Part shown: positions 44,297 to 50,270 of the stretch, in pieces
How the letters are laid out: each line of letters starts with the position of its first letter
How positions within the stretch are numbered: the stretch's first letter is position 1
Assembly (NCBI RefSeq): GCF_003206715.1
Contig: NZ_PZJU01000049.1
Coordinates: 1-64,000, forward strand
DNA from: Salinicola peritrichatus
Lineage (GTDB): Bacteria; Pseudomonadota; Gammaproteobacteria; Pseudomonadales; Halomonadaceae
DNA: 64,000 nucleotides
Reading direction: 5' to 3'
The notes under the pieces: model-generated
Told to the model about the DNA's origin: nothing
The model's input: only the letters and a program-made list of their open reading frames with translations
Database searches by the model: none
Position numbers and translations under genes: made by a program

Positions 44297-44767
44297 TCAA
44301 GAGTCGCGATTGTCCGTTCGCGCGTGCGAGGCCAGGCGGGTCAGGGCGCGTTTGAGTGGAGAGTCATCGAGACCCTCGGCGCAGTGAGACAACGCCTCGG
44401 CGCCAGCCGGCGTCATTCGACGCGTCTGCCGCGGCTTGGCCTTGAGCGGTCGAATCGGCCGGACCTTGAGCGAGAACTTCATTACCGCCTCGAAGCCTGG
44501 CAACTGATGCAGCAGCTCGAGCAGGCGGGGCTGCTCGTAGCGCAGCCAGGTGAGCCAGGCCGCACGGTCGGTGATCAGCGTCAGCACGCCGTTGCGATAG
44601 CCGCCAACGTAGACGTGCTCCGCAATCTCGGCCGGCAGGTGGCGGCGAAGGTGACGCTGGGCACGCTCGATCAGCGTCGCCATCCGCATCACGTCGCCCA
44701 GGCCCCCCGGTTGGTCGAGCAGGTGGGAAACGGACTGGGCGCGAAAACGCTTAGCCTTTATACTCAT
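44297..44767 (-). CDS. dciA: DnaB helicase loader DciA (DUF721)
   Basis: A 156-residue DUF721 protein. The KH-like domain (about 10-100; VMRMATLIERAQRHLRRHLP, HVYVGGYRNGVLTLITDRAAWLTWLRYEQPRLL is the typical region) is followed by a basic, disordered tail. DciA is the ancestral replicative helicase operator where DnaC is absent, so its presence suggests the organism loads DnaB without DnaC. Position between lpxC and secA matches Pseudomonas. The ATG at 44767 (MSIKAKRF) is used; longer readings are atypical. Confidence 0.85.
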   Translation of the reverse strand: MSIKAKRFRAQSVSHLLDQPGGLGDVMRMATLIERAQRHLRRHLPAEIAEHVYVGGYRNGVLTLITDRAAWLTWLRYEQPRLLELLHQLPGFEAVMKFSLKVRPIRPLKAKPRQTRRMTPAGAEALSHCAEGLDDSPLKRALTRLASHARTDNRDS

Positions 44768-44829
44768 CGGCCTGCACACAGTGGGAAATGACCCGCTAAA
44801 CCTATCACGACGCGGAGTTCGTCGACAGC

Positions 44830-45171
44830 ATGACATCGGCCCATTCGCAGTCCGGCCATCGCGCTAACGTCTGGCGTCCCCGGCAGCGAGCCCATTGGTG
44901 GCTGGCCAGCGTGCTGGTCGGCTGCCTGCTGCCCGCCGGTCTCGTGCATGCCGAGGCCATGCGTCTCGCCGAACGCCTGACCCAGGTCTACCTTATGGCG
45001 CCGGAGGCCATCCGCGCCGAATCCCGCCGCATGGCTCGCGCTCCCACGACGCATCCCCAGCCACGCGCGGTCATGCCGCTGGCCTCGTTCGCGGCATACA
45101 CCGCACCGGTCGTGGTGGCCAGCGCGGCGCTCGATGCGTTCTCTCGTCGCGGACCGCCAGTTTCTGTCTGA
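44830..45171 (+). CDS. Small secreted ORF before secA, candidate SecM-like arrest peptide
   Basis: A 113-codon ORF. A long basic N-terminal region (to about residue 21) and a hydrophobic core ([15 protein letters not shown]) end at the likely signal-peptidase site VHA-EA near residue 42. The mature part is only about 70 residues and ends [11 protein letters not shown]106-R-G-P109 lines up with R-A-G-P of the E. coli SecM arrest site and resembles RAPP-type motifs of other arrest peptides. [10 protein letters not shown] just before it recalls FSTPVWISQA of SecM. GGAG lies 12 bases before the ATG. The stop is 83 bases before secA and takes part in a predicted helix with the secA ribosome site. 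I do not recognise it as a named family; the function is inferred. Confidence 0.7.
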
Positions 45172-45251
45172 TTCTTGCTCGGCGTTTCAAGTCACCGATG
45201 GCGGGCATCCTTGTCGATCGCCACGCTGTCACAGGATCATGCAGGAAAATC
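45170..45251 (+). promoter_or_regulatory. Predicted helix hiding the secA Shine-Dalgarno
   Basis: GATTCTTGC (45170-45178, overlapping the stop codon of the upstream ORF) can pair with GCAGGAAAATC (45241-45251), which holds the secA ribosome site AGGA. That gives nine pairs, one of them G-T, with a two-base bulge. An inner ATCCT (45207-45211) / AGGAT (45233-45237) stem may add to it. A ribosome paused at the Gly-Pro-Pro codons (45151-45159) would reach the 5' arm. Predicted by eye only. Confidence 0.45.
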
Positions 45252-45254
45252 ATC

Positions 45255-48002
<2,748 letters not shown>

Positions 48003-49316: not shown

Positions 49317-50270
49317 ATGATCAAGAGACGGGTCCACGTAGCGGCCGCCGCCGTCATTCGCGGCGATGGGCGGGTGCTGATCGCCAGACGACCGGCTACC
49401 GTTGACCAGGGCGGTCTATGGGAGTTTCCCGGCGGCAAGCTGGCGCCTTATGAAACCGGCTTCGAAGCGCTCAAGCGGGAGCTGGGCGAGGAGCTGGGCA
49501 TTCAGATTCGGCGCGCTCAGCCATTGATCCGCGTGCACCACGAATATCCCGACAAGCACATTCTGCTGGACGTTTGGCAAGTGCACGATTACGAAGGCGA
49601 CCCTTACGGCCGCGAAGGGCAGCCAGTGCGTTGGGTCGAAGTGGACGACCTGCCGAACTATCCGTTCCCGGCGGCCAACCTGCCGATCCTGCGTGCGGTG
49701 GCGCTACCGCAGGAATACCTGATTACCGCCGAGGAGCCGGACGACGCGGTTTTCCTGCAGCGGCTCGAGCGCGCACTGAAGGAGGATCGCATCCGCCTGG
49801 TGCAGCTGCGGGCAAAGACCCTCGACGAGGCAGCCTACCAGGCTCGGGCCGAGAAGACGCTGGCCCTGTGCCATCGTTATTCGGCCAAGCTGTTGCTCAA
49901 TGCCGACCCGGCCTGGCTGGATCGTGTCGACGCCGACGGCATCCATCTCACCAGTGCCCGCTTGATGGAACTCAAGCGGCGGCCGATTCCGAGCCACAAG
50001 TGGCTGGGCGCCTCCACCCATGACGACGCGCAGCTGGCGCAGGCCGGACGTATCGATTGCGACTTCGTCACGCTATCACCGCTGGCGCCGACGCCATCGC
50101 ACCCGGATGCGGTGACCATCGGCTGGCACGATTTTCAGCAGATGGTCGAGACCGCCGCGATGCCGGTGTTCGCCCTCGGTGGCATGACGCGTTACCACGC
50201 CAACCAGGCCCGCGCTGTCGGCGCCCAGGGAATCGCCTCGATCCGGGATTTTTGGCGCGATGATGCCTGA
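49317..50270 (+). CDS. Nudix hydrolase fused to ThiE-like domain
   Basis: A 317-residue two-domain protein. Residues 1-130 are a MutT-type Nudix domain (Nudix box GGKLAPYETGFEALKRELGE, then ELGI) that should clean oxidised dGTP or similar. Residues 135-317 resemble thiamine-phosphate synthase (VQLRAK, DADGIHLTS, LGASTHD, PVFALGGM). The usual GPVFPTxTK segment is replaced by LSPLAPTPSHPD, so thiamine activity is doubtful. The same fusion next to argJ is known in Pseudomonas. Downstream lies repeat E1. Confidence 0.88.
   Translation: MIKRRVHVAAAAVIRGDGRVLIARRPATVDQGGLWEFPGGKLAPYETGFEALKRELGEELGIQIRRAQPLIRVHHEYPDKHILLDVWQVHDYEGDPYGREGQPVRWVEVDDLPNYPFPAANLPILRAVALPQEYLITAEEPDDAVFLQRLERALKEDRIRLVQLRAKTLDEAAYQARAEKTLALCHRYSAKLLLNADPAWLDRVDADGIHLTSARLMELKRRPIPSHKWLGASTHDDAQLAQAGRIDCDFVTLSPLAPTPSHPDAVTIGWHDFQQMVETAAMPVFALGGMTRYHANQARAVGAQGIASIRDFWRDDA

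Follow-up and report, generated by a model that had tools for sequence, protein, structure and literature searches.

Does the small open reading frame that directly precedes secA in Salinicola peritrichatus monitor protein export, and does it set the supply of SecA? Around this locus, the whole stretch of DNA analysed (the window, 64,000 nucleotides) carries ftsQ-ftsA-ftsZ-lpxC, dciA on the minus strand, the ORF in question, secA and argJ, where the names of the fts genes, lpxC and argJ were assigned by reading the translations. The ORF (44830..45171, plus strand) begins with ATG, encodes 113 residues ending in SRRGPPVSV, and lies on the same strand as secA (45255..48002, plus strand; 915 aa, TIGR00963 and NF009538); the gap to the secA ATG at 45255 is 83 nt, and the likely Shine-Dalgarno sequence of secA, read from the sequence, is AGGAAA at 45243..45248 on the plus strand. 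On the other side, the divergent dciA (44297..44767, minus strand; PF05258) starts about 60 nt before the ORF. These coordinates agree with the initial annotation, which had noted an ORF of 113 codons that starts with a signal peptide and ends 83 bases before secA. Searches of the ORF or its leader against Pfam, NCBIfam, PHROGs and Rfam returned 0 matches, and a scan for sigma-70 promoters upstream of the ORF found none. The secA reading frame has no stop codon for a long way before its ATG and runs through the ORF (44895-48002), so that a naive ORF call yields a secA of 1035 aa. Adjoining argJ, the translation of 49317-50270 reads as a MutT-type Nudix domain apparently fused to a thiamine-phosphate-synthase-like domain.

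The ORF is far beyond chance, as seen from the spread of its homologues, from the codon positions at which it changes and from the many spellings of its C-terminal motif. With a profile of 13 members, 235 of 250 Halomonadaceae genomes and 21 of 24 genera are found to have a homologue, one of the 235 being doubtful (E = 5e-4, in a genus otherwise without a homologue), and wherever the locus was read, the homologue lies upstream of secA. A search with the single protein in 98 related genomes likewise recovers the ORF in 18/18 Salinicola genomes and in most of the Halomonadaceae. Across 391 genomes of the whole order Pseudomonadales, in which we take GTDB to place the Halomonadaceae, strong matches are confined to this family; the matches elsewhere in the order are weak (E > 1e-3) and were judged to be due to chance. 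One genome each from 33 other families of the order showed no upstream ORF with a RAPP-like motif before secA (two flagged matches were discounted, one inside a peptidase and one in an unrelated frame), and neither did 8 genomes of Halomonadaceae genera that lack the ORF. In most of these other families, and in the Halomonadaceae genera lacking the ORF, the gene directly before secA encodes an M23 peptidase; in Salinicola, the spot held elsewhere by the peptidase gene (44768-45254) carries the ORF. Among the Salinicola copies, substitutions fall at codon positions 1, 2 and 3 in a ratio of 624/275/2314, and the R107-G-P-P core is encoded by 52 different strings of 12 nt; it is thus the peptide that is under selection.

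Aligning the homologues, the check proposed in the initial annotation, gives the signal peptide and the C-terminal motif as the conserved parts. The predicted Sec signal peptide (residues 1-41, 44830..44952, plus strand) has, by inspection, a basic n-region, a hydrophobic core of 16 residues and an AxA-like end (VHA|EA), the cleavage point being set by eye from the sequence. Its core is invariant in relatives; the stretch WWLA[GS]LLV[GS]CLLP at residues 23-38 (44896-44943), including the Cys, is far more conserved than is usual for signal peptides. It is followed by an early mature segment (residues 45-67, 44962..45030, plus strand), about 23 residues long and partly basic, which is conserved in relatives in most genera and is diverged to the point of loss in one (L181, L182); this genus retains the R[GA]PP core. 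With the arrest motif at the peptidyl-transferase centre, the segment would sit outside the ribosome tunnel. Between it and the C-terminal block the sequence is free to vary. The initial annotation had seen in this region a parallel to FSTPVWISQA of E. coli SecM; the matching stretch is unconserved even within Salinicola and the parallel carries no weight. The distance from the predicted signal end to the P site is 68-75 residues throughout the family.

The C-terminal block (residues 99-110, 45124..45159, plus strand), delimited by conservation in relatives, has the consensus A-A-[HL]-D-V-L-[ST]-R-R-G-P-P, and few parts of the ORF are under stronger constraint than its codons. It ends in the arrest core R107-G108-P109-P110 (45148..45159, plus strand), which is invariant as R[GA]PP: in 85 distinct homologues it reads RGPP 83 times and RAPP twice, counts that result in part from selection, as sequences entered this set only if they had the signal core and R[AG]PP. 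The same holds for the counts from the set of named relatives, which was gathered with two patterns, one of them containing RRGPP. The sets not gathered by the exact motif (among them those of the single-protein and order-wide searches) agree on R[GA]PP; every homologue read carries R-[G/A]-P-P, RAPP is found in one further genus, and the most divergent genera, read separately, again end in RGPP or RAPP. The exchange between the two is the sole one seen in the core and occurs twice, in different groups of the family (the RAPP copies are L177, L192, L193, L071 and L097). Some relatives have Gln, Pro or Cys directly before the Arg, and the Arg itself is invariant (85/85), which fixes the register as R107GPP110; the residues that follow RGPP are free among homologues. 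The initial annotation had set Arg106-x-Gly108-Pro109 against R163-A-G-P166 of SecM, and this register is off by one: it is R107-G-P-P that should align with RAGP.

What such a core does is known from published relatives. Arrest is most widely supported by RGPP and RAPP, and among the cores tested it is most robust with RGPP (PMC12992588); the natural exchange of RGPP and RAPP in the family matches the prediction from this laboratory work; RAPP-like motifs fail to stall in some contexts. In Fujiwara et al. 2024, toeprints place the third motif residue of RQH peptides in the P site of the stalled ribosome (PMC10987492), by analogy with which P109 (45154-45156) is expected in the P site and P110 in the A site. 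Together, the published work on RGPP cores and RQH peptides (PMC12992588; PMC10987492) is the ground on which the Salinicola peptide is proposed to stall.

The ORF very likely encodes a Sec-monitoring arrest peptide that controls secA and works like E. coli SecM, and the SecM-like role that the initial annotation had proposed for this lineage gains support from the conserved motif and signal peptide. Starting from what is observed directly, namely the peptide family and the parts it keeps invariant, where it lies relative to secA, and the co-variation of the stem arms described below, the circuit would run as follows. The signal peptide would direct the nascent chain to SecA and SecYEG; once R107-G108-P109 is made and Pro110-tRNA occupies the A site, the ribosome should stall, as the motif and its published relatives suggest. 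Where export is brisk, the pull on the chain would presumably free the ribosome at once; where it is slow, the stalled ribosome would cover 45161-45170 in the 5' arm of an mRNA stem, the secA ribosome-binding region would be exposed, and more SecA would probably be made.

The 5' arm of this stem (45161..45175, plus strand) comprises the last codons of the ORF and the nucleotides just past its stop, and pairs with the secA ribosome-binding region; the 3' arm (45233..45247, plus strand) overlaps the Shine-Dalgarno sequence AGGAAA. A ribosome held at P109, with its leading edge near 45170, would cover most of the 5' arm. The fold energy of the window's own leader is ordinary (z -1.3), and comparison alone is informative here. 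RNAalifold, applied to one subgroup, gave a weak covariation term because the subgroup is too alike, and the MAFFT alignment has the 3' arm of Salinicola in the wrong place; the arms were therefore assessed by swapping, with 5' windows exchanged between 46 sequence clusters in 5000 swaps. Between the arrest-codon window and secA -28..-1, pairing averages -14.8 kcal/mol for native combinations versus -12.1 +/- 0.45 kcal/mol for swapped ones, and 0/5000 swaps are as good, a count that is no exact probability, as the clusters are partly non-independent. When the ORF is scanned, pairing is strongest for the window that begins at P-6, 6 nt before the P-site codon. When the ribosome footprint is masked, the gain in openness at secA -28..-6 is larger with native arms than with swapped ones (p = 5e-6). 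Most of this effect stems from -28..-15; for the Shine-Dalgarno core alone (-14..-6) the difference between native and swapped arms across the family is not significant (p = 0.16).

One Halomonas group retains TGCGTGG as the 5' arm even though it is translated in two frames (PPAWAS* versus PFCVDMLNS*), and as the nucleotides stay while the frame drifts after RGPP, it is the RNA that is under selection there. The Onishia arms show joint changes, CCCAGT occurring with ACTGGG and CCAAGT with ACTTGG. In the window's leader, masking 45169 and everything upstream allows the Shine-Dalgarno sequence to re-pair with 45172-45178; its computed openness thus does not rise, but goes from 0.31 to 0.26. A stem that conceals the ribosome-binding site of secA and would be opened by a stalled ribosome is thus supported family-wide by sequence comparison, and is not clean for the window's sequence. 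The pairing between the mRNA that follows the arrest codons and the secA ribosome-binding region, with predicted arms that co-vary, is new here.

These observations bear differently on the other explanations of the locus. The ORF could stall the ribosome without sensing export, acting either as a constitutive translational coupling to secA or as a fixed brake; the co-varying arms would serve this equally well, as any ribosome passing would open the stem, and release by export is among the inferred steps of the circuit. Such an arrangement would have no need of an invariant signal core or of a conserved spacer of 68-75 residues, and is judged improbable. A different question is one of ancestry, which is compatible with a SecM-like function: the ORF could be a divergent orthologue of SecM by common descent. 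It occupies the same lpxC-secA interval as secM of E. coli and has a core motif of the same kind; set against this, SecM and SecM_small of Pfam (PF06558, PF10818) match 0/13 members, hhalign gives a probability of 0.1%, and the 33 other families without a RAPP-like upstream ORF, mostly with an M23 peptidase gene in its place, favour a separate origin, so that descent from SecM appears somewhat less probable still. Least probable, and hardly to be entertained, is an exported small protein with an independent role in the envelope, for which its place before secA and its RGPP end would be incidental: it would account for the conservation of the first 25 mature residues in most genera, and is at odds with C-terminal codons that are among the most constrained while the middle varies, with the drift in reading frame of the residues after RGPP, and with a genus that has lost the mature segment and retained RGPP.

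A Sec-monitoring peptide at secA would extend nascent-chain monitoring of export to nearly all members of a halophilic bacterial family, whose homologues, from hundreds of species, are numerous enough to study how such sensors evolve; peptide and RNA stem together provide comparative evidence for a full SecM-type circuit at secA outside the enterics. More tentatively, and as a possibility that we would at present rather doubt than favour, the secA-controlling family may have arisen once, within the Halomonadaceae, at the spot of the M23 peptidase gene; its nascent chain may carry a second conserved sensor, formed by the WWLAxLLVxCLLP core and the segment R..AERL.QI.L.AP..IRA.SRR just outside the tunnel, and its arrest codons may form, with the nucleotides that follow, one arm of an RNA switch.

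Among known systems, SecM of E. coli and the small-type SecM resemble the Salinicola ORF in their place before secA, their signal peptide, their C-terminal Arg-x-x-Pro core and a stem that masks the ribosome-binding site of secA; in the short SecM the distance from signal to arrest site is also similar (median 71, compared to 68-75). They differ in the motif, which in SecM is FxxxxWIxxxxGIRAGP, whereas the Salinicola ORF has RGPP with variable upstream positions and no conserved mid-tunnel FxxxxWI; in addition, the Salinicola family has a short spacer and no detectable sequence homology to SecM. An assignment to SecM by sequence was accordingly rejected, E. coli SecM itself matching PF06558 at 4e-58 as a positive control, and a search of 185 genomes of the class for the SecM family found none, E. 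coli again serving as positive control. ApdA, ApdP and ApcA share a core of the RAPP/RGPP type and stall with its third residue in the P site; they differ from the Salinicola ORF in their place, ahead of secDF or yidC, and in their hosts, Actinobacteria and Alphaproteobacteria. uDF_RQH_Enterobacterales of Alteromonas naphthalenivorans, for which induction by arrest was shown by a reporter, combines an RGPP core with a stem that covers the Shine-Dalgarno sequence of the next gene; it differs in being another peptide and in controlling secDF2 rather than secA. A literature search for Halomonas or Chromohalobacter together with SecM found no paper.

The closest counterpart is uA_RQH_Pseudomonadales (Fujiwara et al. 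2024, PMC10987492), which is described as an upstream ORF of secA with a signal peptide, a C-terminal RGPP and a spacer of over 30 residues, in the GTDB order Pseudomonadales. Judged by its sequence, the ORF fits the RQH class as described there: it precedes secA and matches no Pfam, NCBIfam or PHROGs family, has a predicted localisation signal and a conserved C-terminal RAPP-like motif, and its spacer exceeds 30 residues. The initial annotation, which did not recognise a described family, is to be revised on this point, RAPP/RGPP upstream ORFs of secA being the RQH family of that paper. The tested member of the Pseudomonadales group, R109GPP, stalls ribosomes of both E. coli and B. subtilis in the PURE system with fAP > 0.9 (PMC10987492), and four Salinicola relatives of 115 aa (L011, L012, L013, L016) likewise have their Arg at position 109. 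The published group was defined through a motif search and taxonomic order, not through homology, and the available text of PMC10987492 names no species; as no RAPP-like upstream ORF was seen in the other families sampled, it is very probably the Halomonadaceae family described here, and the Salinicola ORF is perhaps already listed in it. Compared to the available part of that paper, what is new is the homology family, its spread over the Halomonadaceae and the predicted mRNA stem.
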